A stretch of 64,000 bases of DNA from contig JAOMCQ010000002.1 of the NCBI GenBank assembly GCA_028345095.1, positions 1-64,000 on the forward strand. Reading direction: 5' to 3'. This stretch comes from Candidatus Nitrosopelagicus sp. Lineage in GTDB: Archaea; Thermoproteota; Nitrososphaeria; Nitrososphaerales; Nitrosopumilaceae. This document shows positions 1-18,919 of this stretch, piece after piece. Every line of letters starts with the position of its first letter. Position 1 is the stretch's first letter. Made by a program: the position numbers and the translations under genes. Under the pieces are notes generated by a model. That model was not told the origin of the DNA. It did no database searches and saw only the letters and a list, made by a program, of their open reading frames with translations.

Positions 1-1568
1 TTTATTTTTAATTTTTCAAATCCAGCATCATTCGAATCAAAAATTTTAGTCAAATATGGATAATTTTGATAATCATAGTATAATGTGTCTTTAATTGGAT
101 GTAATAATCCAGGTTTTTGATTACTTATGATATATTTCAAATTATGATCTTTACCATTGATTAGTAGTTCTTCAATAGTTTTTCCACTTGGTGCAAAAGT
201 AGATTCATACGATGTATCAGAAATTTTGGTTATACTTGAGTTAATCTTATAGTTTTCAAATGATTTAGAAATTAATAAATAATTAATATAGTCTAAACTA
301 CCTTCAGAATCTCGTAGTGTAACACCGTTTAAATTATTTAAAACAAAATTACCAAATTCTAATTTTTCTGATTCTAATTCAGAATCAGGTGCAAATCTAA
401 TAACTACAATTGATGATAGAATTATGATGGTGATTATTACGCCTATCAAGAAGATATCTTTTTGTTTTCGTGAAAATGAGAAAGTGCTTAGTCCGTATTC
501 AACAACTCTTTGAAGTGGAATTACAGAAAAGATCATAAAAAATGGCAGTAAATACAAAACAAATCTCCTATCAGGAACTATTGCCATTGTAAAACTAAGA
601 AGTGCGATTGATGTCAAGATAAAAATCCAATTTGATTTTATTAGATTTGATTTTTGATCAAAAGCGCGTAATGAAAATAAAATTCCAAAAGGAATGAAAA
701 CCACTAGATATGGAAGAGTCATACTTGCAGTAACTGCTAAAACATTGTATAACCCAGTAATGAAAAAATTATTTATGAATGAAAATATTCCATTTTCTTC
801 TATGTAATCAAATGCAGTAATTTTTTCATTATTTCCAATTGCTTCTAACATTAATTCATAACTTCCTGCAAAAACAGCATCTTTGTAAACAGAATAGAAT
901 GGATCATCAAAAGCTTCATTCCTTTCAATTAAAATTGGAGAAATTATTAAAAGAAATGCCGCTATTGCAATACCATAATTTGTAAAAAATTTCCAGGATT
1001 TTTTGTAAGTAAGGAAATAGATCAAAGATATAACAATAAAAACCCAAACACCATTAATTCTCGTCCAATATGCAATTCCAGCAAGAATTAATGAAATAAT
1101 AATAAATCTTGAATTTTGATTTAAAATAAAATAAAATGCACTAATTATAGCCAAAATAAAGAGTGGTTCTGTTAATCCCAATGTGGAATTATAATTTAGA
1201 TGTGGTTCAAATGCAAAGAAACTTGCCAGAACTAAAGAATAACGATGATCAAAGAATTTTCTTCCAATTAGATACATTACAGGAATTGATAATATTCCGA
1301 TTGACATGCTCAGTATTCTTATAGTATTTGAATAATCAAAGAAATTGTCTGAATTAATAAAATTAAAAAACATAGAGACAAATAATGACCATCCCATTCC
1401 CCGATGAATTGATTGAGAATAATCACCGTTTGTATGAGCAATTGCAAAAAGTGTATAATCTAAATTATCTGAATTTACAGGAATAGAAAAATCAACAACA
1501 GATAATTTAAAACCAAGTGAAATTATGGAGATTATTATTAAAACAGATATAATTTTTTTTTTATTCAA
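1..1568 (-). CDS. GT-C fold membrane glycosyltransferase (PMT/ArnT-like), partial
   Basis: The frame is open from a TTG at 1568 to the left edge, about 522 residues, with no stop in the window; the 3' end is missing. The protein begins with a membrane segment, followed by an outside loop rich in Asp (VNSDNLDYT) and a GWSLF motif, then many hydrophobic segments and a soluble tail. This is the pattern of PMT/ArnT-type GT-C enzymes, which move a sugar from a lipid-phosphate donor to an acceptor outside the membrane. The TTG overlaps the TGA of the GT2 gene as TTGA, so the two are probably cotranscribed and the GT2 enzyme may make the lipid-linked donor. The loop resembles that of the protein at 42239-43885, a likely paralogue. 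Substrate unknown. Confidence 0.75.
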   Translation of the reverse strand, partial: MNKKKIISVLIIISIISLGFKLSVVDFSIPVNSDNLDYTLFAIAHTNGDYSQSIHRGMGWSLFVSMFFNFINSDNFFDYSNTIRILSMSIGILSIPVMYLIGRKFFDHRYSLVLASFFAFEPHLNYNSTLGLTEPLFILAIISAFYFILNQNSRFIIISLILAGIAYWTRINGVWVFIVISLIYFLTYKKSWKFFTNYGIAIAAFLLIISPILIERNEAFDDPFYSVYKDAVFAGSYELMLEAIGNNEKITAFDYIEENGIFSFINNFFITGLYNVLAVTASMTLPYLVVFIPFGILFSLRAFDQKSNLIKSNWIFILTSIALLSFTMAIVPDRRFVLYLLPFFMIFSVIPLQRVVEYGLSTFSFSRKQKDIFLIGVIITIIILSSIVVIRFAPDSELESEKLEFGNFVLNNLNGVTLRDSEGSLDYINYLLISKSFENYKINSSITKISDTSYESTFAPSGKTIEELLINGKDHNLKYIISNQKPGLLHPIKDTLYYDYQNYPYLTKIFDSNDAGFEKLKI

Positions 1569-2239
1569 TTCTTTTTCCAGTGGATAAATTCTTTGATAAT
1601 ACCTAAACTTAGTGATGCGCCAACTGGCAAAGGTTTCATTTTTCTAACTCCTCCAATTCTTGCACCTTCATTTCCAATAATTTCACATATTTTCTGACGC
1701 TTTTTTAGTCCTCTAATACACATTTGTTGAATCGCAATAAGACTCATCTCATCAAAATTAAGATCTTGAAAAGTTTTTTTTGACATAATTCTTAATTCAA
1801 CAAGACAATCGGTCAGATGGCCTCCAAAAAATGTATTGACTAAAAAAGCAAACATTCTATTTCCAAATGCATCGATTGGTCCAGCATCTAGGTTTATCGA
1901 GCCTTTACCAAATCTAGTAGCTGCAACTTGATCACAGTTTTCCTTAAATTTTTCAATTATTTTAGGTATTTTTTCTGGCTCATCATTTCCATCTGGACCA
2001 AAAAGAATAAAGTTATCAGATTTAATTGCATTTACACCTTCTATTATTCCTGCTCCAAGACCTTTTTGTTTCTGAATAATTACTTTAAATCCCATCTTTT
2101 CTGCTTCTTCAATTGTTCCATCAGTAGAACCGCCGTCAACAAAGATAATTTCATCTACCCATTCTTTTTTTATTCGTGGTACCACATTTTTTACACCTAT
2201 AACCTCATCTAATGTAGTGATAATAAGAGCAGTAGACAC
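1565..2239 (-). CDS. GT2 family glycosyltransferase, dolichyl-phosphate sugar synthase type
   Basis: A soluble 224-residue GT-A enzyme. The N-terminus has the GT2 nucleotide-binding pattern (ALIITTLDE, then FVDGGSTDGT near residues 33-42), and FGPDGNDEP near 74-82 takes the place of the DxD motif. Short single-domain members of this family transfer a sugar from a nucleotide donor to dolichyl phosphate or a similar lipid on the cytoplasmic side. The start is GTG at 2239; no in-frame ATG lies close by. It overlaps the following membrane glycosyltransferase by four bases, which suggests a donor-making and donor-using pair. Which sugar is used cannot be read from the sequence. Confidence 0.8.
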   Translation of the reverse strand: MSTALIITTLDEVIGVKNVVPRIKKEWVDEIIFVDGGSTDGTIEEAEKMGFKVIIQKQKGLGAGIIEGVNAIKSDNFILFGPDGNDEPEKIPKIIEKFKENCDQVAATRFGKGSINLDAGPIDAFGNRMFAFLVNTFFGGHLTDCLVELRIMSKKTFQDLNFDEMSLIAIQQMCIRGLKKRQKICEIIGNEGARIGGVRKMKPLPVGASLSLGIIKEFIHWKKN

Positions 2240-2410: not shown

Positions 2411-3307
2411 ATGTCAAAGAATAAACAATTACGAAAAAAATTAGAAAGTAATTCCTTAGTCAAAGTTGGTGGTGCATTTGATGCGATGTCTGCTAAATTA
2501 GTTGAAAATGCAGGTTTTGATGCAATTTGGGCAGGTAGCTTTGCAATATCAGCAACTCATGCATTACCAGATGCAAGCATTTTAACAATGACAGAATTTT
2601 TCAATGTTGCATCAAGTATGGAGGATGCATGTAATATTCCAATTATTGCAGATTGTGATACGGGTTATGGAGGACCAAGTAATGTTAGCCACTTGGTGAA
2701 AAAATATGAAAATGCTGGAATTTCATCTATATGCATAGAAGATAAAATATTTCCAAAACAAAATAGTTTGCTTGAAGGGGGGAAAAATGAATTATTACCT
2801 GAAAAAGAATTTGTAGCAAAAATTTTAGCAGCTAACGAAGCAAAAAATGATAAAGATTTTTTGGTTATTGCAAGAGTGGAAGCATTAATTTCAGATTTAG
2901 GAATGAATGAAGCAATTAAACGAGCAGATGCATATGAAAAAGCAGGTGCAGATGCAATTTTAATTCATTCTAAACAAAAAACCCCTGATGAGATTTTTGA
3001 ATTTGCAGATACATGGAAAGGGAGTTTACCAATTATTGCAATACCAACAACTTATGATAGTGTGAAGATTTCAGATTTATCAAAACATAAAATTAAAATG
3101 GCAATTTATGCAAACCAGACATTACGTGCATCTCATGCATCTATGATTAGATTATTAAAAGAAATGAAAAATGTGGAAAAAATTTCAGACGTTAAAGAAA
3201 GAATGTCAACTATGAGTGAAATATTCGAATTACAAAAAATGTATGATGTTAAAACTAAAGAGAAAGATATAGAAGAAGAATTGAAAAAACTTGGTTATGT
3301 TAATTGA
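2411..3307 (+). CDS. aepX: Phosphoenolpyruvate phosphomutase (PEP mutase)
   Basis: Converts phosphoenolpyruvate to phosphonopyruvate, forming the C-P bond; this is the entry step of nearly all phosphonate pathways. The 298-residue protein belongs to the isocitrate lyase/PEP mutase superfamily: GGAFDAMSAKL near residue 20, the metal-binding DCDTGYGG at 81-88, and EDKIFPKQNS at 110-119. The EDK-x5-NS signature separates true PEP mutases from the lyases of the superfamily. The length is normal for the family. The next gene starts inside its stop codon (TTGA at 3304-3307), so it leads an operon with the decarboxylase subunits and the cytidylyltransferase. Confidence 0.95.
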   Translation: MSKNKQLRKKLESNSLVKVGGAFDAMSAKLVENAGFDAIWAGSFAISATHALPDASILTMTEFFNVASSMEDACNIPIIADCDTGYGGPSNVSHLVKKYENAGISSICIEDKIFPKQNSLLEGGKNELLPEKEFVAKILAANEAKNDKDFLVIARVEALISDLGMNEAIKRADAYEKAGADAILIHSKQKTPDEIFEFADTWKGSLPIIAIPTTYDSVKISDLSKHKIKMAIYANQTLRASHASMIRLLKEMKNVEKISDVKERMSTMSEIFELQKMYDVKTKEKDIEEELKKLGYVN

Positions 3308-3792
3308 CAGATAATTTTCAAGATCAAATGTTTGATTTTTTATTTAGAAAAGGAATTGAAAATTTTGTAGGAGTTCCGGATTCAACATTAAAACAATTTA
3401 TTTCACACGGACTAAAATCTAAAAAAATCATTATTACAACCAGAGAAGAAGAGGCAATTGGAATTAGTGCAGGTATGATACTAGCAAAAAGTCCAACATT
3501 AGTATTTATGCAAAATGCAGGATTTGCAAATTCATTAAGTACAATAACATCTCTAATACAATTATACAAATTTCCGTTAATATTTTTAATTGGTTGGAGA
3601 GGTTTTAAGAAAAATGATGCCCCAGAGCATAAGAAAATTGGACAAATACAACCAAAATTATTGAAAGATATAGGATTGCAAACTAGAATTATCAACAAAA
3701 ATAATTGGAAAAAATTTTCTTCATGGGCTATTAACAAAATGAAAAATGGAGATTCATGTGCACTTGTAATACCGAGGGAATTTATTGATTAG
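3304..3792 (+). CDS. ppd: Phosphonopyruvate decarboxylase, alpha subunit (TPP Pyr domain)
   Basis: With the next gene, decarboxylates phosphonopyruvate to phosphonoacetaldehyde using thiamine diphosphate, which pulls the unfavourable PEP mutase reaction forward. The 162 residues form only the N-terminal Pyr domain: FVGVPDSTLKQF near 22-33, then TREEEAIGISAGM with the Glu that activates the cofactor, and NAGFANS. The start is TTG at 3304, overlapping the aepX stop. The usual phosphonopyruvate decarboxylase is one chain of about 380 residues; here it is split, as in the ComD/ComE sulfopyruvate decarboxylase. Sulfopyruvate decarboxylase is therefore the main alternative, but adjacency to PEP mutase favours phosphonopyruvate. 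Confidence 0.88.
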   Translation: MTDNFQDQMFDFLFRKGIENFVGVPDSTLKQFISHGLKSKKIIITTREEEAIGISAGMILAKSPTLVFMQNAGFANSLSTITSLIQLYKFPLIFLIGWRGFKKNDAPEHKKIGQIQPKLLKDIGLQTRIINKNNWKKFSSWAINKMKNGDSCALVIPREFID

Positions 3793-4336
3793 AAAAAAAG
3801 CAATTGAAATTTGTATAGGTGAAATTGGGAATTCACCAATAGTAGCAGCTAATGGATTCATTAGTAGGGATTTATTCAATGTCAAAGATAAAAAAACAAA
3901 TTTTTACATGATTGGTTCTATGGGATTAGCTTCATCTATTGGATTAGGAATTGCATTGAAAAAACCAAGAAAGAAAATTTTTATTTTTGATGGAGATGGA
4001 AATATTCTAATGAATCTTGGTTCATTAGCTACTATAGGAAAAATTAGTCCAAATAATTTAATTCATTTAGTTTTTGATAATTCTATTCATGAATCAACAG
4101 GTGGACAGCCTACAGGTTCTGATGTAATATCAATTGAAAAAATCGCTAGAGCGTGTAATTATAAACATGTGTTTAAGGTATCAACAAAAAATGGAATAGT
4201 AAAAATTTTAGATAAAATTAAAAAATATTCAGGTCTAACTTTAATCTTAATAAAAATTGAGAAAGGAAATTCAATAGGAAATAGAATATCAAAAACGCCT
4301 AAAAATATTAAAGATGGATTTATAAAAAATTTATAG
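3785..4336 (+). CDS. ppd: Phosphonopyruvate decarboxylase, beta subunit (TPP-binding domain)
   Basis: The C-terminal half of the split decarboxylase, 183 residues. It carries the diphosphate- and magnesium-binding motif GDGNILMNLGSL near residues 76-87, followed by FDNSIHESTGGQ, typical of phosphonopyruvate and sulfopyruvate decarboxylases. The start is TTG at 3785, eight bases before the end of the alpha gene and in a different frame. Both halves are intact and start and stop at the natural domain boundary, so this looks like two subunits and not a frameshift. The two proteins must associate, because the active site of this family lies between Pyr and PP domains. Confidence 0.88.
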   Translation: MIRKKAIEICIGEIGNSPIVAANGFISRDLFNVKDKKTNFYMIGSMGLASSIGLGIALKKPRKKIFIFDGDGNILMNLGSLATIGKISPNNLIHLVFDNSIHESTGGQPTGSDVISIEKIARACNYKHVFKVSTKNGIVKILDKIKKYSGLTLILIKIEKGNSIGNRISKTPKNIKDGFIKNL

Positions 4337-4338
4337 AA

Positions 4339-5088
4339 ATGAAAGCAATAATAATTGCTGCAGGTTCAGGACAACGAATTAGTAAATATGTAAAATCTAT
4401 ACCAAAATCATTGATAAATGTTAATGGTAAAGCAATAATTGATTATCAAATTAGAGCGTTAAAACAAGCTGGAATCAATGAGATTATTATAGTGACAGGA
4501 AAATTTGGTGAAAAATTTAAAATGAAAGATATTCAATATGTTAAAGATCCAGATCATCAAAATCATGATATTTTGGGAAGTTTAATGGAAGCAAAAGAAT
4601 TTTTAAAAGATGAGGTCATTGTTTTGTATTCAGATATCATATTTGAATACAAAATTATTAAACAAATTTTAGATTCAAAAAAGAATATTTCAATTGCTAT
4701 TGATAATAATTGGGAACAACATTATGAAGGACGAACAGAACATCCAAAATCAGAAGCAGAGAATGTTCTAATTAATGAAAAAAAGGAAATTGTGGAAATT
4801 AGAAAAAACATTGAAAATAAAAATAATAATGTAGGAGAATTTTTAGGAATAATAAAATTTTCAAAACAAGGGGGAGATATTTTTATTAAAAAATATGAAA
4901 ATGCAATTCGTAAAGAAAAGAAAAAATTTCATGATGCATCATCAATTTCAAAGGCATATTTGACAGATATGCTTCAAGAGTTAATTGAACAAGGTGTAAA
5001 AATTGAGCCTGTATTTATTTCAGGCAAATGGTCTGAAATTGATACAATGCAAGATTTGAAAAGAGCTGAAAAACTATTTTCAAATTAA
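4339..5088 (+). CDS. Nucleotidyltransferase, probable phosphonate (PntC-like) cytidylyltransferase
   Basis: A 249-residue sugar-phosphate-type nucleotidyltransferase. IIAAGSGQRI (residues 4-13) with PKSLINVNGK is the NTP-binding signature, LYSDIIF near 95-101 supplies a metal-binding Asp, and SEIDTMQDLKRAEK near the end is typical of the choline-phosphate cytidylyltransferase group. In phosphonate clusters such enzymes (PntC) join CMP to 2-aminoethyl- or 2-hydroxyethylphosphonate so it can be transferred to a glycan or lipid. The gene follows the decarboxylase by two bases and closes the operon; it overlaps tail-to-tail with the opposite-strand gene by four bases. CMP-hydroxyethylphosphonate as product is inferred from context. 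Confidence 0.8.
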   Translation: MKAIIIAAGSGQRISKYVKSIPKSLINVNGKAIIDYQIRALKQAGINEIIIVTGKFGEKFKMKDIQYVKDPDHQNHDILGSLMEAKEFLKDEVIVLYSDIIFEYKIIKQILDSKKNISIAIDNNWEQHYEGRTEHPKSEAENVLINEKKEIVEIRKNIENKNNNVGEFLGIIKFSKQGGDIFIKKYENAIRKEKKKFHDASSISKAYLTDMLQELIEQGVKIEPVFISGKWSEIDTMQDLKRAEKLFSN

Positions 5089-6209
5089 TCATGCGTATTC
5101 ATTATAATCTGTAATTCTTTCCAAAGAATTTCTTCCATGCTTTCTCCAGTATCGATAATATTGGTTTTTTCATATGGATCAGCTTCAAGATTATACAATT
5201 CTTTAGAATTATCATATTCATTGAATATTAATTTCCATTTTGAAGTACGAATTGATTTTACATTTGGTTCTTTTGGAGGAGATTTCTCATAAAGAGGATG
5301 TCCAGTTTCAGTGAATGCATAATTTTCAGGAATTGATTCACCGTTGATTAGGGGAAGTAATGATATACCATCTAATTTATTGCAATTTTGCTCTATAGGA
5401 ATTTTCAGATAATCAAGAATAGTAGGCATAAAATCTATGGTTCTAGTTTGTTGTTTTATTTCAAGTTGAGACAGATCATTTGCTAAAAAATATGTGAATG
5501 TTCTTAATGTATAATCATAACAAAATGCACCATAAGCATGCTCACCAAATTTTTCACCAGTACTAACTCCATGATCGGACATTATTATAATCAATGAGTT
5601 TTTATCTAATTGTAATTTTTTTATTTCATCTAAAATTGATTCAATATAATTTTCTGCTTTTTGAAATAATCTAGAATATCTTTTTTTATTTTTATCCACA
5701 TTTTCAAAAAATTCTTTACTGTGATTCCTATATACATCAAGAACTTCATTTTTTATTCCAGTGTGTATATTGCTATAATGTAAATAGACAAAGAAATTGT
5801 TTTTATTAGATGATATTGATAAATTATGAAGTATTTCTTTATGTCTACTTGTTAAATCATCATTATTTTCATCATGCACAACAAATTCATCAAAACCTTG
5901 TTTTGGAATAACTAATTGGTTTATGACATCTGCCTGGGTGTAATAATCATTTTCGTGTAAATACTCAGTGAGTGTCTTAAACTGATTTTTTTTAAATTTA
6001 AAAGTTGACCAGTAGCTATTAGTTCCAGTTCTAGTTCCATAACTACCACTAAAAACAGCATGCATTGCAGCTATTGTATGAGGTCCATATGTAATTGATT
6101 GAGAAAGAAATACAGAATTAGATTTAATTTTAGAGAAAATTTTAGATTTTAATGCATAATCTAGACGTCCACCGTCTATCATAATCATGATTAGGTTTTT
6201 TTTAGTCAT
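5085..6209 (-). CDS. Alkaline-phosphatase-superfamily enzyme (sulfatase/phosphotransferase type)
   Basis: A 374-residue protein with the metal-binding core of the superfamily: MIDGGRLDY (Asp12), a nucleophile region GPHTIAAMH (Thr45), SDHGVSTGE and, downstream, FGEHAYG. A Thr nucleophile in place of the Cys/Ser-x-Pro-x-Arg of true sulfatases points to a phosphodiesterase, phosphonate hydrolase or phospho(no)transferase. I see no signal peptide or membrane helix, so it should be cytoplasmic. It lies 19 bases after mpnS on the same strand and is probably cotranscribed with it. A role in moving a phosphonate to or from an activated carrier is inferred. A similar enzyme lies on the other side of mpnS. 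Confidence 0.78.
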   Translation of the reverse strand: MTKKNLIMIMIDGGRLDYALKSKIFSKIKSNSVFLSQSITYGPHTIAAMHAVFSGSYGTRTGTNSYWSTFKFKKNQFKTLTEYLHENDYYTQADVINQLVIPKQGFDEFVVHDENNDDLTSRHKEILHNLSISSNKNNFFVYLHYSNIHTGIKNEVLDVYRNHSKEFFENVDKNKKRYSRLFQKAENYIESILDEIKKLQLDKNSLIIIMSDHGVSTGEKFGEHAYGAFCYDYTLRTFTYFLANDLSQLEIKQQTRTIDFMPTILDYLKIPIEQNCNKLDGISLLPLINGESIPENYAFTETGHPLYEKSPPKEPNVKSIRTSKWKLIFNEYDNSKELYNLEADPYEKTNIIDTGESMEEILWKELQIIMNTHD

Positions 6210-6228
6210 AGTATTTAATTTTCATAAT

Positions 6229-7599
6229 CTAACTTTTACCTTTTTTATCAAACCAAGGCATAGTTTCAGAAATAGCACGTTTTGTATGTTCTTTTCCAAC
6301 AATAGATAATTCACGCTGAGAATCACCAGGTATTTTTCCTGCAACTCTTAAAATCAGAATCTTTCCATTTCCTCTAAAGCTATGCTTAATGAATGGTTTA
6401 ATGTATAATGAATCATTTGGATAGATATCTTCACTGTATTTTATTTCATTTATTTCCCAATTCAAAGTGATAGGTGTATCACCTACATTGTAAACATATT
6501 GGTGTAATCCAAATTCTAAATCTAATTCAGAATCATTAGAATTAAGTAAATCAACTTCAAAAGATTTTGAAAAAGGGAGTGCAGTAGTAGATGCTAGTTC
6601 ACGAAATTCATAAGATTTAGTTTTTTCAGGATAAAACCAAATTTTTGTATCTTTATGATTTTTAATTATTACTTTATTTTCAATTTTGTCATTTGGTAAT
6701 AAATCCCTAACATTAATTGTCAATGCAGCAGAAATTTTTTGTAGTTGTGAAAGCTCTGGAATAATTGAACTTGATTCAAACGATTCTAATTCTTTGAGAG
6801 AAATATCAGTTCTTTTAGCTAATTCTTCCAAAGAAATACTAGATAGTTTACGATTAAATTTTAGTAAAGAACCACTCGCAGATTTGATTGATGAAAAATC
6901 TAATGCAAATTCTGAACCTAAATTATGCATTGAAGATAATTCTTGTTGTGGCTCCCCGGTAAGTTTTCCTCCATATGTTAATGCAAGAATTAATCCTTTT
7001 GATTTTGAATCAGATCTTGTTGCAAAAGTATGTGGCACAAATGGAGTAATATACATTGAATCACCAGTATTCATTACTGCTGTTTGTTTTTTACCATCTT
7101 TGTCTTTATAATAAAAATTAACATTTCCAATAAAATATGTAAATTGATGTAAAAAATGACCGTTATTCCACTGTACAGAATTATTTTCAGAATCATTATC
7201 AGTTACATTACATAATTCAAGTATCCATTCTGGACGAAATGGTGCACTTTTACTCATCGCAGTATCACGATATTCATAATAAGGTTTTCCAGCACGATAC
7301 ATAATTCTAGAAGTTTTTTCTGAATCTTTAGAGGACATAATTTTTATTCCTTTAGGACAATCATCTTCAATTATGAAAAAATCTCTTTTATTAACAGGCC
7401 AAATTTTTATTGCTTTTTCAATGATGTCTTGAGGTAAATCAGTATCACCTTTAATTATAGAATTAATTAGTTCTAATGAAACATCAAGTTCTTTTGCAGC
7501 ATCTTCAGGTCTACGCTTAATATCATTAAGAATTCCAAGAAAATTTGAAGCTGTTCTTAATCTATTTAAATCCTCAAGAGAATTTCTTGGATCTAACAT
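6229..7599 (-). CDS. mpnS: Methylphosphonate synthase
   Basis: Converts 2-hydroxyethylphosphonate and O2 to methylphosphonate with a non-haem iron centre. The 456-residue protein has the duplicated layout of the HEPD/MpnS family: helix-turn-helix about 15-75, cupin about 100-210, second helix-turn-helix about 240-300, second cupin about 310-440. In the first cupin, His148 and Gln152 lie in NNGHFLHQF and His190 in PFVPHTFATR. This matches in residue and number the 2-His-1-Gln iron site known from N. maritimus MpnS; hydroxyethylphosphonate dioxygenase has Glu instead. The ATG at 7599 follows a TATA-like box by about 26 bases. The pathway genes on both sides agree. Confidence 0.94.
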   Translation of the reverse strand: MLDPRNSLEDLNRLRTASNFLGILNDIKRRPEDAAKELDVSLELINSIIKGDTDLPQDIIEKAIKIWPVNKRDFFIIEDDCPKGIKIMSSKDSEKTSRIMYRAGKPYYEYRDTAMSKSAPFRPEWILELCNVTDNDSENNSVQWNNGHFLHQFTYFIGNVNFYYKDKDGKKQTAVMNTGDSMYITPFVPHTFATRSDSKSKGLILALTYGGKLTGEPQQELSSMHNLGSEFALDFSSIKSASGSLLKFNRKLSSISLEELAKRTDISLKELESFESSSIIPELSQLQKISAALTINVRDLLPNDKIENKVIIKNHKDTKIWFYPEKTKSYEFRELASTTALPFSKSFEVDLLNSNDSELDLEFGLHQYVYNVGDTPITLNWEINEIKYSEDIYPNDSLYIKPFIKHSFRGNGKILILRVAGKIPGDSQRELSIVGKEHTKRAISETMPWFDKKGKS

Positions 7600-7620
7600 A
7601 TGAAATGTATCATTGGGTGT

Positions 7621-7630
7621 TAATTATAAT
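7621..7630 (-). promoter_or_regulatory. TATA-like box before mpnS
   Basis: Read on the minus strand, ATTATAATTA is centred about 26 bases before the mpnS ATG. A second TATA-like stretch (AATATAAC) lies about ten bases further upstream. The position fits a leaderless transcript. The short gap after the upstream same-strand gene means mpnS could also be reached by read-through. Confidence 0.35.
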
Positions 7631-7661
7631 TTGTTATATTTTTTGACGATAAAAATGATTT

Positions 7662-9011
7662 TTACATATATCCCATTTTTTTTAATTCTTCAGAAATAAT
7701 TTTATCCTCTTCTTCGCTAAGGTGTTCTTCTAGTTTTGAAGAATTTTGTTGGATTTCATCTAGTGTTTGTTCCATCTTTTGTATTACACTAGGATAATCT
7801 TTTGCAATGTTGTTATTTTCATCTGGATCGTTTTCTAGATTGTATAAATGCACATTTTTTTTTGTATTAGATGAATTCCTAAAATATTTGAACTTATTTG
7901 TACGTAATCCAATCTTGTCTAAAGGAGATTTTTCTTGGTAAGGTATGGTATGAAGAAATATGTCTTTTTCAATTATATCATTACCGTTGATTAATTCAGT
8001 TAAGCTTTCATTGTATTTGGTTTTTCGATATGGAATTTCTACAAGTGATAAAATAGTCGGAAAAATTTGTAAAGTTGAAATTTGTTTAGATATTATTTGT
8101 GATTTGAGGTTCAGACCAGAAATGAAAAATGGAATATGTAACATTTCATCATATAATGATAATGTAAAATATGGATCTCTTGAACGTTTTTGATAATTAG
8201 TTAACTGCTTACTAGCTTGTTCGGATTTTATATTTCCTAAAGATTTTTTTATTTTTCCAAATAATTTACCGCTTGCGTTATGTGTTGCATTTGGTAAAAT
8301 TTTTTTTCCAATACTTTTGACTGATTTAAATTCTGGTTCGTATTGAAATGCAGCTTTATCATCATGAGGGATTCGTTCACCATGATCAGCGGTCAATACC
8401 AATAATGTATTATTGAAATTTACATGTTCAGAGATTTTTTGTAGGTAATGATCAATAGAAGATACTGTTTGCGAATATAGTGAATCACCAAAAACATCAG
8501 TTTGAAATTCTTCAATTTTTGAAGGTTTTTTTCCTTCACGCAATGGATGTAAATCAAATAAATGAATATAACAAAACCAAGGTTGTTTATTTTTTAATAA
8601 ATTTAATAATGATATTATTTTTTGAGTCATTCCAGTTGGAAGAGTTTCATATGGAGGATTATTATCAAATGTACAATCATTATTTTGAAAATATTCTTTA
8701 AGTGGTTTTAAGGATGTTAGATTTGGAATTAATCCAGATATATAATATCCAGAATTTTTTAAGTTTTGTATATGATTATCTTCTAATAACATTAATTTTC
8801 TCGATCTAATTCCAGTTTCAAATTGAAACTTTGAATTAAAAGTACAGTTTAAAGAAATTATAGTACCATCTGCAGATGCGTATGTATTTTTGAAGTATGG
8901 GCCTTTGGTTAATAATGAATCAAGAAATGGTGTATTTGATTTCTTATTATCACCAAAACATTGGTCAGCTCTTAGACCATCAACTAAAATAAATAGTATA
9001 TTTGTAGGCAT
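7662..9011 (-). CDS. Alkaline-phosphatase-superfamily enzyme, second copy
   Basis: A 449-residue sulfatase-fold protein. Metal and nucleophile motifs are FILVDGLRADQ (Asp11), SADGTIISL (Thr as likely nucleophile) and LTADHGERIPHDD. The frame is open for 46 codons upstream, but that extension crosses the divergent promoter and the next gene, so I take the ATG at 9011 (MPTNILFILVDG), which places the motif where the family has it. No signal peptide is visible. It shares only the superfamily core with the protein at 5085-6209. Its place between mpnS and the reductase suggests a phosphonate or phosphodiester substrate; the exact reaction is unknown. Confidence 0.8.
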   Translation of the reverse strand: MPTNILFILVDGLRADQCFGDNKKSNTPFLDSLLTKGPYFKNTYASADGTIISLNCTFNSKFQFETGIRSRKLMLLEDNHIQNLKNSGYYISGLIPNLTSLKPLKEYFQNNDCTFDNNPPYETLPTGMTQKIISLLNLLKNKQPWFCYIHLFDLHPLREGKKPSKIEEFQTDVFGDSLYSQTVSSIDHYLQKISEHVNFNNTLLVLTADHGERIPHDDKAAFQYEPEFKSVKSIGKKILPNATHNASGKLFGKIKKSLGNIKSEQASKQLTNYQKRSRDPYFTLSLYDEMLHIPFFISGLNLKSQIISKQISTLQIFPTILSLVEIPYRKTKYNESLTELINGNDIIEKDIFLHTIPYQEKSPLDKIGLRTNKFKYFRNSSNTKKNVHLYNLENDPDENNNIAKDYPSVIQKMEQTLDEIQQNSSKLEEHLSEEEDKIISEELKKMGYM

Positions 9012-9023
9012 TATGAAAATTAA

Positions 9024-9041
9024 TTTATAACAAGTTATAAA
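9024..9041. promoter_or_regulatory. Palindromic divergent TATA pair
   Basis: TTTATAAC and GTTATAAA form a perfect inverted repeat with eight-base arms and a two-base centre, between divergent genes. On each strand one arm is a TATA-like box centred about 26 bases from the start codon (ATG 9011 minus, ATG 9064 plus), so one element may serve both leaderless transcripts. The palindrome could also be an operator. Confidence 0.5.
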
Positions 9042-9063
9042 AAATATCCCACTGAAAGAAATT

Positions 9064-9996
9064 ATGTATACTATAAAACAACCAAAAGAGATAATATTTG
9101 GAAAAAATTCTTGTAAAGAGTATACTTTTCCTGATAATAGTTTAGTCATAACATCAAATGGTGCAATAAAAAGAGGATGGATTGAGTATTTGGGAATTAA
9201 AAATTATTTTTTGTTTGATAGTGTAGAACCTAATCCATCAATAGAAACAGTAAATGAAATAATTAATGAATTTCAAAATAGTAATTTTTCATGTATTATT
9301 GGAATGGGAGGAGGAAGTAGTTTAGATGTTGCAAAATTTGTGAGTCATAAATTACATAAAAAAAAGATTATGATTCCAACAACGTTTGGTAGTGGTAGTG
9401 AAGTAACAAGGATTTCAGTTCTAAAAGTAGATGGTAAGAAAAAAAGTTTTCATAATGATGAACTTTTTGCAGATAGTGCAATTATTGATTCATTTTTCAT
9501 TTATAATTCTCCAACGGAAATAATAAAAAATTCTGCAATTGATGCATTAGCACAATGTTCAGAGGGATTTGATAGTAAAAATGGTAATTACTATACAAAA
9601 TTTCTTTGTAATTATGCATTTGAATTATTAGAAGCGGGGGTGATGAATATGGATCATGAAAAAATAGTTAAAGGGTCATTAGTATCAGGATTAGGTTTTG
9701 GGAATTGTTCTACAACGTTAGGACATGCATTATCATATGTTTTTTCTAATGAGGGATATTCACATGGACATGCACTTTCACATACAACATTATTAGCACA
9801 TGAATTTAATAAATCAAAATATTATGAAAGATTCAAAAAAATAGTAGAAAAATTAAAATTTTCTAGAATTAAACTGGAACAAAATTATGTTGAAGCGTCA
9901 GAATTGATTTTGAGTGATAGAAAGCATTTAGATAACAATCCATTAGAAATAACAAAAAATGACATCATATCATTATTAAAAAAAATTAATGATTAA
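9064..9996 (+). CDS. Iron-type alcohol dehydrogenase, probable phosphonoacetaldehyde reductase
   Basis: Expected to reduce phosphonoacetaldehyde to 2-hydroxyethylphosphonate, the substrate of MpnS, with NAD(P)H. The 310-residue protein is a group III (iron-dependent) dehydrogenase: MGGGSSLDVAK at 81-91 binds the dinucleotide, TTFGSGSEVT at 106-115 is diagnostic, and metal ligands are Asp160, His221 and His234. The usual fourth ligand, His four residues after Asp160, is Gln164 here. It is shorter than typical members (about 380), mainly in the C-terminal helical domain. It is read away from the mpnS side from a shared divergent promoter. Function rests on family plus cluster. Confidence 0.85.
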   Translation: MYTIKQPKEIIFGKNSCKEYTFPDNSLVITSNGAIKRGWIEYLGIKNYFLFDSVEPNPSIETVNEIINEFQNSNFSCIIGMGGGSSLDVAKFVSHKLHKKKIMIPTTFGSGSEVTRISVLKVDGKKKSFHNDELFADSAIIDSFFIYNSPTEIIKNSAIDALAQCSEGFDSKNGNYYTKFLCNYAFELLEAGVMNMDHEKIVKGSLVSGLGFGNCSTTLGHALSYVFSNEGYSHGHALSHTTLLAHEFNKSKYYERFKKIVEKLKFSRIKLEQNYVEASELILSDRKHLDNNPLEITKNDIISLLKKIND

Positions 9997-10032: not shown

Positions 10033-10548
10033 TTGGGAAATAGATTTTTCAATATGGGAGATAACCTTGCATTCCGTTCATGGTATTATTTTAGACAGGG
10101 ATGGAGCACATATTTTGCATTTATTTTTGCAGCAGTAAACACACTAACTGTTACATATTTCTTGGCAATTGAGAGCTATCCTGAGCTAAAGTTAATTTTT
10201 CCATCATTTCCAATATATGTTGGAATAATCACTTTGATTGGAGTTCCATTACTTGTGTTCATAGGATATTTACATTTCAAAAGATCAGCTGCATATAGAT
10301 CTGAAGCAGATATTATTTTTGAAGTCAATCCATTTGTAAGAAGAATGCTGGTGAATACAGAATTATTAATTCAATTAAATCTACAACTAACCGAAAATAT
10401 GATAGCATCATCTAAAAATGAAAAGATGTCCCAAGATGAAATTAAAAATCTTGAGAAATTGAAAAAAGAATTAGAACAGTTAATTGATAACAGATCTTTT
10501 TCAAATAAGATGGATTTAGAATATTTAAAAAAGAACATCTCAACTTAG
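10033..10548 (+). CDS. Hypothetical two-helix membrane protein
   Basis: 171 residues, family not recognised. After a short aromatic N-terminus there are two membrane helices (about 27-46 and 61-81), then a charged region with a helical, coiled-coil-like stretch around 125-155 rich in Lys and Glu. The start may be TTG at 10033 or the ATG seven codons later. It follows the reductase by about 35 bases and precedes a WbqC-like gene by a dozen, so it could be an operon member, but nothing ties it to phosphonates directly. The C-terminal region is probably cytoplasmic. Confidence 0.65.
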   Translation: MGNRFFNMGDNLAFRSWYYFRQGWSTYFAFIFAAVNTLTVTYFLAIESYPELKLIFPSFPIYVGIITLIGVPLLVFIGYLHFKRSAAYRSEADIIFEVNPFVRRMLVNTELLIQLNLQLTENMIASSKNEKMSQDEIKNLEKLKKELEQLIDNRSFSNKMDLEYLKKNIST

Positions 10549-10560
10549 TAATTAGCTCAA

Positions 10561-11238
10561 TTGATTATTTCCATACATCAACCAAATTACTTGCCTTATC
10601 CAGGTTTTTTTCACAAAGTAAGTCATTCAGATGTATTGATAGTTCAAGATGTTACAAAATTTGATGAAAGATTTTCAAATCGAAATAAGATTATTTCGTC
10701 AACTGAATGGACATGGCTTACAGTGCCAATTAAAAAAAATCATAAAGACTATTTGTTAAAAGATGTTCAAATTTTTAATGATTTAAAATGGAATAAAGTT
10801 CATAGAAAAAAATTAGAAAGTGCATACAATAAATCAAATTTTTTTAATAAGTATAATACTGATTTGAATTTGATACTGGAACAAAAATGGGAAATGTTAT
10901 TAGAATTAAACATGACAATAATAAAAAAAATTAATGATTGGTTAAAAATTAAGACTAAGATAATTTATGAATCAGAATTAGGAATAGAAGGTGAAGCGAC
11001 AAACAGATTGATAAATATCTGTAAAGCAGTAAATGCAGATGTGTATCTATCAGGAGATATGGGACATGATTATCTAAATGAAGAATTATTCAAACAAAAT
11101 GAAATAGAATTAAGATATCAAAATTATACACCAAAACAATATAATCAAATATTATCTAGAGAGTTTATTCCAAATTTATCAATCATAGATATGTTATCTA
11201 ATATAGGACATGAAGAAGTTAGAAAAATTCTGAATTAA
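10561..11238 (+). CDS. WbqC-like family protein
   Basis: 225 residues matching the WbqC-like family at its signature N-terminus: SIHQPNYLPYPGFFHKV, then VQDVTKFDERFSNRN and a later LSGDMGHDYL. Members sit in O-antigen and other surface-polysaccharide clusters and in some natural-product clusters; their reaction is not well established, though transfer of an acyl or aminoacyl group to a sugar has been proposed. The start is TTG at 10561. It overlaps the tail of the opposite-strand methyltransferase gene by four bases. Context supports modification of a surface sugar or the phosphonate glycan. Confidence 0.8.
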   Translation: MIISIHQPNYLPYPGFFHKVSHSDVLIVQDVTKFDERFSNRNKIISSTEWTWLTVPIKKNHKDYLLKDVQIFNDLKWNKVHRKKLESAYNKSNFFNKYNTDLNLILEQKWEMLLELNMTIIKKINDWLKIKTKIIYESELGIEGEATNRLINICKAVNADVYLSGDMGHDYLNEELFKQNEIELRYQNYTPKQYNQILSREFIPNLSIIDMLSNIGHEEVRKILN

Positions 11239-12092
11239 GATATATTCTTTTTTCTAATTTGTATTCTAATTTCTATTCCATTATCACCATCAGTTTTTTT
11301 GAATGGATAAAATGGACATATCTGTTTACTGAAAGAGGGAAAATATTTTTTTATGGTTAATTGTCCTCTGCCTTCTATTCGAACAAATTCTCTATAAGAT
11401 TCACATTTAATAATTTCTAGATTATTTTTTTCAACAAGAGTTTTCAAAGTATTTTTTGTATAATGATATGAAGATGCATTATCAAAAACTGATTGATTTA
11501 ATATTTTTGGGTTTTGACAATCAGGTACTGCAATGAAAATAAATCCATTGTTTGAAAGTAGTTCGCTACATTTTTGAAGAAGTAAATCAGGTCTTACCAA
11601 ATGTTCAAAAACGTGTGAAAGCCAAATAATATCAAATTTTGTATTTATTTTGAGATCTTCAGCAAATCCTTGAATGCATTTACCATAAATTAATTTATCA
11701 TTGATAAAATCAACATATTTTGAATTTGCCTCAACACCGGTTACAGAAAATCCTTTATTTTCAAATAAACGTAAAGCCAAACCAGTACCAGGACCAATTT
11801 CTAAAAGATTTTTTGATTCATTGAACAAAGGAAAACAATAATCAAAATGTGATTTCCAGAGATTCATCAAGTAGCTACCGTGATTTGTTTTATGATCTAA
11901 GTCAATTGTGTCTTTAATTTCTCCGACAGGAGTAGCATTTGCATAGTACTTCTTCATTGTTTTATCTAATTGTTCAATAGATTCACCAGTCGCAATTAAT
12001 TTACAAGAATTACATTGTGTTATGGGAATTTCTAAAAAAGAATTATCGAATATGATAGAATTTGATGAGCTTCCACATGAAATACAAGTCAT
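11235..12092 (-). CDS. SAM-dependent class I methyltransferase with N-terminal zinc ribbon
   Basis: 285 residues. The N-terminus has a four-Cys zinc-ribbon pattern (CISCG near residue 3, CNSCK near 27). The central Rossmann fold carries the SAM-binding motif LEIGPGTGLAL near 97-107, an acidic VTGVEANSKY strand end, and FDIIWLSHVFEHL near 155, typical of Methyltransf_11/23 proteins. The C-terminus resembles enzymes that methylate sugars or small molecules in polysaccharide clusters. ATG at 12092. It is divergent from the PIG-L gene. The substrate cannot be stated; an O- or C-methyl group on a surface sugar is the natural guess. Confidence 0.8.
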   Translation of the reverse strand: MTCISCGSSSNSIIFDNSFLEIPITQCNSCKLIATGESIEQLDKTMKKYYANATPVGEIKDTIDLDHKTNHGSYLMNLWKSHFDYCFPLFNESKNLLEIGPGTGLALRLFENKGFSVTGVEANSKYVDFINDKLIYGKCIQGFAEDLKINTKFDIIWLSHVFEHLVRPDLLLQKCSELLSNNGFIFIAVPDCQNPKILNQSVFDNASSYHYTKNTLKTLVEKNNLEIIKCESYREFVRIEGRGQLTIKKYFPSFSKQICPFYPFKKTDGDNGIEIRIQIRKKNIS

Positions 12093-12232
12093 GATTATAT
12101 TGATTGAATGCTATATTCAATGTTTACTTTACAATAAAAAAATTAGTAAGATAAAGTCAGAATACCAATAGATAATAAACTAATAATCTCTTCTACACAA
12201 TGACTAAATAGTATATATTAAAATTTCAGTAT

Positions 12233-12922
12233 ATGAAAAATTTTAAAAATGAACGATTATTAATTATCGCACCACATGCTGATGATGAAGTACTTGGATG
12301 TGGAGGTTTAATTGCAAAAGTTAAAGAAGATGGTGGAAAAGTGTATGTTCTAATTTTTAATGTAAGTTCAATTGAGAAATATGATAATGAAAAATTTACT
12401 GAAAAAAGAAAAAAAGAAACTGAAAATGCTATGAAATTTCTTAAAGTTGATGATTATGTAACAGTTTTTGATTCACCAGAAGATAACAGATATTTGGATG
12501 CAAAACCTCTTCACTCGTTAATTAGTAAAATTGAGACAGAAACTAAAGTATCCTTAACTAAAATTAAACCAACAATTGTTGCAATACCAACAATAAATTC
12601 TCATCATCAGGATCATTTACATGTACATAAAGCATGTATTGCTGCACTTAGACCATTAAGTACACCAATAGCAAATGTTGTTTTATCATATGAAGCACCA
12701 GAACATAGTAGATGGTCAACTAGTGGAGTATTTGAGCCAAATCTCTATATTGATATTTCAAAATATTTAACAAAAAAAATTCAAGGATTTTACAAATACA
12801 AATCTCAAATAAAGATTCGAGGTAGAGATAAAACAACAATTACTAATCATGCAGAATATAGAGGAAAAGAAGTCGGAAGAAAGTATTGTGAAGCATATTT
12901 TGTTCATAGATTTACAATATAG
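12233..12922 (+). CDS. PIG-L/LmbE-type N-acetyl deacetylase
   Basis: 229 residues. The zinc-binding signature APHADDEVLGCGG at 13-25 is the AHPDDE motif of the LmbE/PIG-L family, and NSHHQDHLHVH near 122-132 supplies the third zinc ligand. These enzymes remove acetyl groups from N-acetylated amino sugars, often GlcNAc attached to a lipid or small molecule. An AT-rich TATA-like run lies just upstream (about 12211-12220), but only about 17 bases from the ATG, closer than usual. It is followed after 36 bases by a nucleotide-sugar epimerase/dehydratase. A surface amino-sugar substrate is inferred. Confidence 0.88.
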   Translation: MKNFKNERLLIIAPHADDEVLGCGGLIAKVKEDGGKVYVLIFNVSSIEKYDNEKFTEKRKKETENAMKFLKVDDYVTVFDSPEDNRYLDAKPLHSLISKIETETKVSLTKIKPTIVAIPTINSHHQDHLHVHKACIAALRPLSTPIANVVLSYEAPEHSRWSTSGVFEPNLYIDISKYLTKKIQGFYKYKSQIKIRGRDKTTITNHAEYRGKEVGRKYCEAYFVHRFTI

Positions 12923-12958
12923 ACAAAGACAAATACTGAATAATTTAAGATATAGATA

Positions 12959-13933
12959 ATGAAAACTTTTTCTGGAAAAAATATTCTTGTTACAGGAGCA
13001 GATGGATTTGTCGCAAGTCATTTATGTGAACATTTGGTTTCAAAAAATGCTAAAGTTATAGCATTATTACGAAGAAATTCAGGTGGAATTTTTAAAAATC
13101 TGAATGAAATAAAAAAATCAGTTAAAATCAAATGGGGAGATACACAGGATCTTTCGCTTTTAACAGAAACAACAAAAAATGTAGATATCATATATCATTT
13201 GGCAGCACAAAGTCATGTGGGACACTCACTCTATAATCCATATGAAACAGTAACAAATGATGTATTATCCACATTAAATGTAGTAGAAGCTGCAAGAAAA
13301 AATGATGTAAAAAGAGTGATTCATGCAGGAAGCTCAGAGATTTATGGTGATCCAAAATATGTTCCAATAGATACAAAACATCCATTACAACCTAGAAGTC
13401 CATATGCAGCTGCAAAAGCATCTGCAGAAAATATTCTTGAATCATACTTTCATACATATGGACTACCCATTGTCATGTCAAGATTTTTCAATATTTTTGG
13501 TCCACGGCAAGGATTAGATCAGGCTATACCTAAATTCATTTTACAGGCACTAAATGGACGAAATATTACAATATATGGAGATGGAAAACAAACTAGAGAT
13601 TATACCTATGTAGATGATGCAGTAAATGCATATTCAAAATTAGGATTAATTCCAAATCTAGAAGGGAAAGTAATGAATTTTGGAACAGGAAAAGAAATTC
13701 AGATTAGAAAGTTAGCAAAATTAATTATAGAATTATGTGATTCAAATTCAAAATTAAAATTTTCAAAGAATTTGAGAAGTGGTGAAACACCAAGATTACT
13801 ATGTAATTCAAATACTGCAAAAAAATTAACTAAATGGAAACCAACTATATCCTTCGAAGAAGGTGTAAAAAGAACCATAGAATATTACAAAGATAAAACT
13901 CATCTTATAGATAATATTCCATATATGTTGTAA
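12959..13933 (+). CDS. NAD-dependent nucleotide-sugar epimerase/dehydratase
   Basis: 324-residue extended short-chain dehydrogenase. NAD-binding TGADGFVASHL is at 12-22; the active site shows GSSEIYG near 122-128 and YAAAK (Tyr/Lys pair) near 148-152; RFFNIFGPRQG near 175-185 and DYTYVDDAV near 219 are typical of GDP-mannose 4,6-dehydratases and UDP-sugar 4-epimerases. The N-terminal TGADGF and the layout lean towards the GDP-mannose 4,6-dehydratase group, but the family cannot be settled by eye. A GDP-mannose-hydrolase-like Nudix protein nearby would fit GDP-sugar metabolism. It converges on the opposite-strand gene with four bases between. Confidence 0.85.
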   Translation: MKTFSGKNILVTGADGFVASHLCEHLVSKNAKVIALLRRNSGGIFKNLNEIKKSVKIKWGDTQDLSLLTETTKNVDIIYHLAAQSHVGHSLYNPYETVTNDVLSTLNVVEAARKNDVKRVIHAGSSEIYGDPKYVPIDTKHPLQPRSPYAAAKASAENILESYFHTYGLPIVMSRFFNIFGPRQGLDQAIPKFILQALNGRNITIYGDGKQTRDYTYVDDAVNAYSKLGLIPNLEGKVMNFGTGKEIQIRKLAKLIIELCDSNSKLKFSKNLRSGETPRLLCNSNTAKKLTKWKPTISFEEGVKRTIEYYKDKTHLIDNIPYML

Positions 13934-13937
13934 ATTT

Positions 13938-14843
13938 TTAAGAATTTTTTAGTTCTTCAAATATAGATTCTAATCTTGATTTCATATTATCAGAATTTTT
14001 CCATGAAAAGTTTTTTTGAATTTTAGATGTAGATGTGTACGGAATATTTGGTAGCTTATCAGTATCAGATTGTTTTTTTAATAATATAGATAGATTGTAC
14101 TTGTTTTTAGCTATATTTTTCATATTAATTGCTAAATCATTAATAGAAATCCTAGATTCATTTGATATATTATAAATTTCATTTTTAGGTTTTTTACTAA
14201 CAATTTGATTGAGTATATTTAAAAAATCATCAATGTGAACAAAATCAACTAATTGTTTTCCATCTCCATATAGGGATATCTCTCGATTTGAAAAAATATT
14301 TAAAATGAATTTGTCAATCACATTATTGAATTTTGCATCAAAAAAGTGTTGATGACCATAAATATTTGACATTCTTAAAATTGTATAAGGTAGATTGCTT
14401 TTCATTAATAGTGTCTCTTGTTCAAAACGAAATTTTCCATATAATGTTTCAGGATTTGGAGTACAATCTTCAGAATTCATTTCAGAATCAGAATAAACAA
14501 AGGCGGTGGATAACAAAAGAAAATTACATTTTTTATTGTCAATTAATTTCAAAAGTTTTTTAAAATCATCAATATTGATTTTTTTATAGAGATCAGAGTT
14601 TTCTAAACAATCTACAACACCTCCTGTGTTAATACAGTAACAAATGAGATCTACATCTCTGGATAATTTTTTTATTAAATTTTCATTTTTTAAGTCATCT
14701 TGAAAAAATTTTATTTTTCTATTTTTAAAATTCAATTTTGAAGAATTATTTCCATGATCAATACAAGTTATATTATGAGTTTTAGATAATGAAAATGCAA
14801 TTTCACTTCCTAAGTATCCAGTTCCAAGAATTAAAATTTTCAT
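13938..14843 (-). CDS. NAD-dependent epimerase/dehydratase family protein
   Basis: 301 residues, short-chain dehydrogenase fold. N-terminal GTGYLGSEIA (residues 7-16) binds NAD(P). A Ser/Thr and the Tyr-Lys pair appear in LLSTAFVYSDSE and TLYGKFRFE, RMSNIYG follows near 157, and YGDGKQLVDFVHIDD near 195 is shared with sugar epimerases and dTDP-4-keto reductases. It is only distantly related to the neighbour at 12959-13933. It precedes nothing in tight linkage on its strand; the glycosyltransferase starting at 16068 ends 28 bases upstream of it, so the two may be cotranscribed. Product unknown. Confidence 0.78.
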   Translation of the reverse strand: MKILILGTGYLGSEIAFSLSKTHNITCIDHGNNSSKLNFKNRKIKFFQDDLKNENLIKKLSRDVDLICYCINTGGVVDCLENSDLYKKINIDDFKKLLKLIDNKKCNFLLLSTAFVYSDSEMNSEDCTPNPETLYGKFRFEQETLLMKSNLPYTILRMSNIYGHQHFFDAKFNNVIDKFILNIFSNREISLYGDGKQLVDFVHIDDFLNILNQIVSKKPKNEIYNISNESRISINDLAINMKNIAKNKYNLSILLKKQSDTDKLPNIPYTSTSKIQKNFSWKNSDNMKSRLESIFEELKNS

Positions 14844-14871
14844 TTTCTAGATGTTAGATAATAAAATCATA

Positions 14872-16068: not shown

Positions 16069-16163
16069 TAAATAACAATGAATTTATCCTATTATTTACC
16101 ATTATTACTAAATTAAATATATCAAATGAAAAGCAGATATAATAATAAAAAAATTGCATTAAT

Positions 16164-16919
16164 ATGAAAAAAAATAATGATGTTGTTGCAGGTTTAGGAG
16201 AAATAGGCACCCCTCTAAAAAAAATTTTTTCTAAAGACCTAGAAGTATTAGGTTATGATACAAATCAAAAATTAATGACTGTAAAAGAAAGAAAATTTGT
16301 AGAATCTGTTGATGTTCGATTCTTACATATCTGTATACCATTTAACAAAAATTTTATTAAATCAGTAAAAAATTTAATTAAAAAATTCAAACCAAAATGT
16401 ATCATAATACATAGTACCGTAGAACCTAATACTACAAAAAAAATACAGAATAATTCAGATATTCCAGTCATATACAGTCCAATTAGGGGAGTACATAGAA
16501 GAATGCAAAATGATCTTAAAAGATATACAAAATATTTTGCAATAGAAAAAAATGCACCAAAACTTAGATGGGCTACAAAAAATTATTCAGATTCATTAAA
16601 AAAATGTGGAGTAAAAACAAAAAGAATGTCTAGTCCAGTGACATTGGAATTAGGAAAAATTATTTGTGATACCTCATATTATGGATGGTTAATTACTTAT
16701 GCACAATTGAGTAATATTATTGCAAAAGATCATAATGTAAAATATGATGAAATGTGGGAGTTCTCAGAAGAAATTCATAAGTATCTGGGCAATAGACCAA
16801 AAATGTTTCCAGGTATAATTGGAGGTCACTGTGTTATACCAAATCTAGATTTAATACACAATCAAACATTGGATTTAATTAAAAAAACTAATGACATCTA
16901 TACAAAAAGGAAGAAATAA
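16164..16919 (+). CDS. Short UDP-glucose/UDP-ManNAc-dehydrogenase-like protein
   Basis: 251 residues, against about 430 for the family. The N-terminal Rossmann domain (AGLGEIGTPL at 9-18, LHICIPFNK, HSTVEPNTT) and the central helical domain (LELGKIICDTSYYGW) are present. The protein ends soon after IIGGHCVIP, which corresponds to the catalytic Cys region (GGHC) of UDP-ManNAc dehydrogenases. The C-terminal sugar-nucleotide domain is missing, although the stop is clean and the next gene begins two bases later. It may be a minimal family of its own, a partner subunit, or a degenerate enzyme. Part of a three-gene run with the Nudix and methyltransferase-like genes. Confidence 0.7.
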   Translation: MKKNNDVVAGLGEIGTPLKKIFSKDLEVLGYDTNQKLMTVKERKFVESVDVRFLHICIPFNKNFIKSVKNLIKKFKPKCIIIHSTVEPNTTKKIQNNSDIPVIYSPIRGVHRRMQNDLKRYTKYFAIEKNAPKLRWATKNYSDSLKKCGVKTKRMSSPVTLELGKIICDTSYYGWLITYAQLSNIIAKDHNVKYDEMWEFSEEIHKYLGNRPKMFPGIIGGHCVIPNLDLIHNQTLDLIKKTNDIYTKRKK

Positions 16920-16921
16920 TT

Positions 16922-18912: not shown

Positions 18913-18919
18913 TAAATGA

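Follow-up and report, generated by a model that had tools for sequence, protein, structure and literature searches.

Does the gene cluster at positions 2411-9996 of a 64,000-nucleotide stretch of Candidatus Nitrosopelagicus DNA (the window) make methylphosphonate, and is the product destined for a cell-surface glycan? The window is the start of a 97-kb contig in an assembly of 895 kb and 33 contigs that is 66% complete. An open reading frame (ORF) check found eight genes with intact frames in the cluster. PEP mutase (PepM), both halves of a phosphonopyruvate decarboxylase (Ppd) and a nucleotidyltransferase (NTP) lie on the forward strand, SulfA, MpnS and SulfB on the reverse strand, and a reductase of the iron-dependent alcohol dehydrogenase (ADH) family again on the forward strand. 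A first-pass annotation had named PepM, the split decarboxylase, the reductase and MpnS as a methylphosphonate pathway. The coordinates of these five genes proved exact and all of their frames are open, and the pathway assignment agrees with the profile matches, the MpnS residues and the comparison with Nitrosopumilus maritimus. NTP, SulfA and SulfB, which belong to the same cassette, had been left out. As a whole, the cassette probably makes methylphosphonate and readies it to be joined to a glycan at the cell surface.

MpnS and the predicted product

MpnS (6229-7599, reverse strand), which would convert 2-hydroxyethylphosphonate (HEP) to methylphosphonate, matches the solved N. maritimus MpnS (6b9s) at 632 bits over residues 12-455, and the Streptomyces HEPD 6b9r at 270 bits. 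All rows of a 16-row MpnS alignment share K28, H148, F149, H151, Q152 and H190, and 14 rows have I184. The 2-His-1-Gln iron triad of the window protein consists of H148, Q152 and H190, present in all 16 rows. According to the available part of PMC11978286, methylphosphonate synthesis requires two residues adjacent to the glutamine, a Phe and an Ile, together with this type of triad. As 6b9r has Leu and Gly at the corresponding positions, the required residues were equated with F149 and I184. The window MpnS carries both and lacks the HEPD-type Leu/Gly pair; in 6b9r, Leu, Tyr and Gly stand where the window has F149, H151 and I184. It had been proposed in the first-pass annotation that the first-cupin ligand set would separate MpnS from HEPD. 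The window MpnS does keep His-Gln-His, but so does 6b9r, and this test is too weak; according to PMC11978286, it is the Phe/Ile pair that discriminates.

The MpnS proteins of Marine Group I strain F20 (G011; L036:2910-4301) and of G137 (L037:9285-10646) have Gly at position 184, like 6b9r. Because of this residue their product is uncertain, and may be other than methylphosphonate.

The gene order was compared, as the first-pass annotation had suggested, with that of the N. maritimus cluster (L033), and further across a total of 18 relative loci that include ten MpnS loci of the same family (L028-L037) and seven from outside it. The N. maritimus cluster, whose MpnS matches 6b9s across all 457 residues (1049.8 bits), includes the same eight-gene cassette, with 67% identity to the window for PepM, 62% for PpdA, 58% for PpdB, 59% for NTP, 64% for SulfA, 63% for MpnS, 65% for ADH and 35% for SulfB. 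Hence, SulfB is far more diverged than the other seven genes (58-67%). The arrangement also differs, as ADH is divergent from PepM in N. maritimus, whereas in the window it lies beside SulfB at the far end. The L028-L037 loci have the same cassette as far as their contig ends reach; SulfA was found in nine of the ten (L034 has a 65-aa match only) and SulfB in eight, the exceptions being L032 and the 4-kb L035. According to the available part of PMC7490402, Ca. N. catalina SPOT01 is also listed with a complete or nearly complete pathway. The pathway is already known from a relative, and what is new is the intact set in Nitrosopelagicus and its mosaic build.

Core pathway enzymes

PepM (2411-3307, forward strand), assigned to the conversion of phosphoenolpyruvate (PEP) to phosphonopyruvate, matches the Pfam PEP_mutase family (PF13714; 189 bits, E 1e-55). 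The best NCBIfam model is TIGR02320 at 290.2 bits, below its cut-off of 319.55, and the phosphonopyruvate hydrolase model scored 267.7. The catalytic motif reads EDKIFPKQNS and is kept in all 17 rows covering the site, the 18th row being a fragment; EDKXXXXXNS is given as the PEP mutase catalytic motif in the available parts of PMC6697681 and PMC8931226. A second candidate PEP mutase in the genome (C23:78564-79400) was rejected, as it reads EDQKWPKRCGH and lacks EDKXXXXXNS. The KRCGH residues are presumed to mark the isocitrate-lyase type. Matches of this kind, at ~30% identity, make up most of the 202 of 250 family genomes with a match to PepM.

The decarboxylase is encoded as an N-terminal thiamine diphosphate-binding half (alpha, 3304-3792, forward strand, PF02776), which lies beside PepM in relatives, and a C-terminal half (beta, 3785-4336, forward strand, PF02775). 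These cover positions 1-155 and 171-358 of TIGR03297 at 100.5 and 192.9 bits, respectively, each below the whole-protein cut-off of 312.5, as half-proteins must be. Scores with the sulfopyruvate decarboxylase alpha and beta models were lower (94.8 and 167.1 bits), though by a small margin for alpha. The reductase (9064-9996, forward strand) is a short iron-ADH of 310 aa (PF00465, E 2e-28), present in the cassette of family relatives with long enough contigs, and is probably a phosphonoacetaldehyde reductase. Iron-dependent ADHs have an Asp-His-His-His metal set, from which the window protein departs while belonging to the Pfam family. At the E-values of these genes, chance matches are no issue for the sequence-based assignments.

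Probable cytidylyltransferase and proposed CMP activation

NTP (4339-5088, forward strand) is a MobA/LicC-type nucleotidyltransferase of 249 aa (PF12804), and its presence in the neighbourhood of PepM is as expected for a PntC-type enzyme. Its N-terminal part aligns with LicC (1jyk) and PntC (6pd1); however, the window NTP stands alone, and its substrate would be methyl- or hydroxyethylphosphonate. Of the 18 relative loci, 17 have a cytidylyltransferase-type domain close to PepM or MpnS, or joined to one of them in a fusion. The exception, L035, is a 4-kb contig, and the same genome has two such domains on another contig (L077). In the seven MpnS loci of Woesearchaeota, Nanoarchaeota, Chloroflexi/SAR202, Alteromonadaceae and Elusimicrobiota, the domain is fused to PepM in six and adjoins MpnS in the seventh (L011), and it is also present in two predicted viral loci from IMG/VR. 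NTP is 41% identical over almost its full length to the PepM-fused domain of the Nanoarchaeota locus L009, whereas its match to the window's own sugar nucleotidyltransferases is local (~60 residues). Mainly because such domains accompany PepM and MpnS across the relative loci, NTP is read as a phosphonate-activating enzyme, probably a PntC-like CTP:phosphonate cytidylyltransferase as judged by its context. Activation of phosphonates as CMP esters is described in the available main text of the PntC paper (PMC6697681), which has no mention of 'archae' or 'methylphosphonate'.

The two IMG/VR loci (L082 and L083) encode an MpnS-like protein (36-37% identity), a cytidylyltransferase-PepM fusion, an iron-ADH and LicD, with few PHROG matches. 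L082 further includes a B12-radical SAM protein by Pfam, and L083 has a neighbour of the same length.

SulfA and SulfB

SulfA (5085-6209, reverse strand; PF00884) and SulfB (7662-9011, reverse strand; PF00884, 92 bits) are sulfatase-fold proteins. The first start of the SulfB ORF, at 9149, overlaps the reductase gene, and the relatives start where SulfB has an internal Met (9011), which is probably the true start. Thr45 at the nucleophile position of SulfA, and Asp12, Asp212 and His213, are invariant in 21 of 21 rows. Residue 50 of SulfB, Thr in the window, is Thr in 19 and Ser in three of 22 rows, and the metal-site Asp and Asp-His are invariant. Formylglycine sulfatases have the motif Cys/Ser-x-Pro-x-Arg, in place of which the window proteins read Thr45-Ile-Ala-Ala-Met and Thr50-Ile-Ile-Ser-Leu.

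Predicted models (predicted local distance difference test, pLDDT, 87 for SulfA and 88 for SulfB) have the S1 sulfatase fold, and with the metal-site residues this places both proteins in the sulfatase/alkaline phosphatase superfamily. As the catalytic strand comes first in both modelled chains and a signal peptide would have no place before it, both are probably cytosolic. Almost the full length of each chain fits the fold of S1 sulfatases and of phosphonate monoester hydrolases, at Z of about 30-37 (4uph at 33.1 for SulfB and 30.7 for SulfA), and SulfA also matched the lipoteichoic acid synthase LtaP at similar Z. The Z values favour neither a hydrolase nor a transferase; EptA-type transferases were absent from the matches listed, which excludes nothing. 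SulfA and SulfB differ from the S1 sulfatases and phosphonate monoester hydrolases in the Thr at the nucleophile position, shorter length, lack of a signal peptide and phosphonate gene context. Such genes near mpnS have been annotated as arylsulfatase (PMC9381506).

The distribution of SulfA was assessed in 250 family genomes at thresholds of at least 53% identity for PepM and at least 50% for SulfA, with counts read off by hand; G117 was counted as lacking PepM and G183 as lacking SulfA, where the contigs end. PepM was found in 22 genomes and SulfA in 20, and 19 genomes have the two together (Fisher p 2e-24, without phylogenetic correction). SulfA follows PepM rather than MpnS, being present in 19 of the 22 genomes with PepM and in one of the 228 without, and ten genomes lacking an intact MpnS (the G193 remnant included) still hold both PepM and SulfA. 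This co-occurrence links SulfA to phosphonate synthesis in general. The lack of a sulfatase-activating enzyme was considered as an argument against a sulfatase role for SulfA and rejected, as a gene of the formylglycine-generating enzyme (FGE) family is present in all five genomes searched.

Glycan island and mosaic build of the cassette

The first-pass annotation had described the pathway as framed by glycan genes, and these were indeed found on both sides. To the left lie a family 2 glycosyltransferase (1565-2239, reverse strand; PF00535; AglJ model 94 bits against a cut-off of 325) and a membrane mannosyltransferase-like protein that runs off the window edge (3-1568, reverse strand; PF13231). 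The remaining glycan island (10033-18009) encodes an unknown protein, WbqC, a methyltransferase, a PIG-L deacetylase, two NDP-sugar epimerase/dehydratases, a glycosyltransferase and a NUDIX protein. The first of these (10033-10548) has no Pfam match, and recurs by the phosphonate clusters of L038, L065, L070 and L073 (48-55% identity).

Trees of the cassette genes conflict. The window groups with the congener G005 for PepM (support 99/98) and ADH (95/91), and with the congener G018 for SulfA (100/96), but for NTP it groups with the Nitrosopumilus-type G059, G193 and G140, the last being N. maritimus (96/89). In approximately unbiased (AU) tests, forcing the window to join G059 and G193 was rejected for PepM (p-AU 1e-20) and ADH (p-AU 3e-6), as was forcing NTP to join G005 (p-AU 2e-9) or G005 and G008 (p-AU 7e-6); the groups were named after viewing the trees, and these p-values were not pre-planned. 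Alternative groupings were not rejected for SulfA (p 0.056) or MpnS (p 0.21), and in the MpnS tree none of the branches at the window is starred. A single origin of the whole cassette was rejected given the conflicting PepM/ADH and NTP trees and the p-AU values. Right of the island, the window shares core genes (18055-20779) at 93-100% identity with G005 and, as regards the two genes that fall in the stretches compared, with G025, whereas the genes adjoining this core differ between the window and G005/G025. The GC content is 0.25-0.29 in the island (0.26-0.29 in the cluster) and 0.30-0.35 at 18-30 kb. Because of the conflicting trees, the conserved core beside differing neighbours and the difference in GC, the cassette is best read from these sequence comparisons as a module that can be exchanged within a hypervariable glycan island.

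In G005 the core is the same, with a PhyH dioxygenase (L065:13166-13939) between SulfA and SulfB, the position of MpnS in the window. Its best NCBIfam model is methylphosphonate hydroxylase, at 152.5 bits against a cut-off of 500. In Ca. Nitrosopelagicus AH-558-N14 (G018), a 762-aa frame (L035:909-3197, on a single 4-kb contig shared with L004) encodes a TauD-family dioxygenase fused to a full MpnS, flanked on both sides by SulfA-like genes; the product of the fusion may be oxidised further. Five loci (L070, L073, L074, L075 and L077) represent a second type of thaumarchaeal phosphonate cluster, in which the PepM/Ppd/NTP core is accompanied by a KedN5-like B12-binding radical SAM protein of ~690 aa, a NUDIX protein and a second NTP; SulfA is present in four and a TauD dioxygenase in three of the five. 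Fosfomycin-type C-methylation acts on CMP-HEP, and by analogy the second cluster type is reminiscent of it.

This suggests, as a speculative and rather doubtful generalisation, a modular archaeal phosphonoglycan machine, of which the window would represent one setting. PepM, split Ppd, ADH, the cytidylyltransferase and SulfA would form its constant core, producing a CMP-activated phosphonate, and the chemistry would be set by a swappable slot, filled by MpnS (methyl), a PhyH-type or TauD-type dioxygenase, a B12-radical SAM methylase, a TauD-MpnS fusion or nothing. SulfA would then be the first of a new class of phosphonyl transferases, cytosolic and of sulfatase fold with Thr as nucleophile, acting from CMP to a glycan precursor.

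Proposed route and alternatives

In the proposed route, PepM would form phosphonopyruvate from PEP, the split decarboxylase would convert this to phosphonoacetaldehyde, and the ADH-type reductase would yield HEP. Using Fe(II) and O2, MpnS would cleave the C-C bond of HEP, leaving methylphosphonate. A CMP ester of the phosphonate would be formed by the 249-aa cytidylyltransferase, and a transferase, perhaps SulfA and/or SulfB, would move the phosphonate in the cytosol onto a glycan precursor made by the flanking genes. The gene identities and MpnS specificity markers are supported by homology and residues, and the route from PEP to methylphosphonate follows from what the genes encode and from what is established about the pathway (PMC8931226, available part). 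CMP activation is suggested by gene context. Glycan attachment is a proposal, well motivated by the glycan island, the cytidylyltransferase and the available part of PMC9381506, which describes genes such as those for glycosyltransferase and arylsulfatase in the neighbourhood of mpnS and refers to evidence that N. maritimus has an exopolysaccharide modified with methylphosphonate. The role of SulfA and SulfB in transfer is conjecture.

Several points weigh against this gene-based assignment. In the reductase, Gln stands where iron-ADHs usually have the second metal-ligand His; this holds for 14 of 16 rows (the window protein and 13 of the 15 relatives), among them all family members aligned. 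The best solved matches of NTP are nearly tied between LicC (1jyk, 50.8 bits), a sugar nucleotidyltransferase (2ggo, 50.4) and PntC-AEPT (6pd1, 48.1). In the part of the window's genes that was scanned, neither LicD nor a CDP-alcohol transferase turned up, leaving the transfer step without a recognised enzyme, and SulfA and SulfB could be hydrolases. The last point raises the most serious alternative, that both proteins are catabolic and trim the glycan as sulfatases or phosphonate monoester hydrolases, with no role in the synthesis or attachment of the product. Their nearest folds are S1 sulfatases, with phosphonate monoester hydrolases also matched, and an FGE-family protein is encoded in the window's genome and all four relatives checked; however, the Thr (or, in SulfB, Thr/Ser) at the nucleophile position in every row, the departure from the formylglycine motif, the models without a signal peptide and the tracking of PepM by SulfA make this role somewhat improbable, though a real possibility.

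Methylphosphonate could instead remain free as a small molecule, or serve as the headgroup of a lipid, as none of the genes here encodes a proven glycan phosphonyl transferase, a CMP ester would suit a lipid equally, and the available part of PMC8931226 places the Prochlorococcus SB phosphonate in the protein fraction, not free polysaccharide. With the glycan island on both sides of the cassette and sugar-type genes around those of relatives, this is unlikely. An HEPD making hydroxymethylphosphonate would account for membership of the same cupin family, the shared His-Gln-His, the end-to-end alignment at 270 bits and the Gly184 of the G011 and G137 proteins, but is very improbable given the F149/I184 pair and the far higher score with the solved MpnS. 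Least credible of all is the view of the cluster as a chimera of the assembly or a remnant in decay. The fragmented, incomplete assembly counts in favour of this and against methylphosphonate synthesis, and the G193 cassette (L038) is truly decayed, with a frameshifted PepM, MpnS reduced to its last 47 codons and most of Ppd gone, while SulfA, NTP and ADH are open. However, all eight window frames are intact, the same contig carries the core genes shared with congeners, and the GC content of the cluster resembles that of the rest of the island.

Distribution and significance

Intact MpnS is encoded by 11 of the 250 family genomes, three of them in Nitrosopelagicus, and by a twelfth (G193) as a remnant. 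The near-complete single-contig congener G025 has no MpnS, and the type species of the genus, N. brevis, is stated in the available part of PMC4830246 to be without mpnS.

The more surprising results come from the comparative material, namely the swappable tailoring slot, the phosphonate-linked Thr-type sulfatase-fold enzymes and the Gly184 relatives of MpnS. No named archaeal enzyme for phosphonate attachment was found in the open-licence literature searched, and the conserved cytidylyltransferase and SulfA are candidates for this function. Archaeal methylphosphonate feeds methane release in oxic seawater, and Nitrosopelagicus is an abundant open-ocean ammonia oxidiser. The intact MpnS found here, together with an MpnS-family gene in two congeners (strain F20, without the Ile marker, and AH-558-N14, as a fusion), suggests that the trait is patchy in this open-ocean genus, apparently through exchange of glycan-island cassettes.

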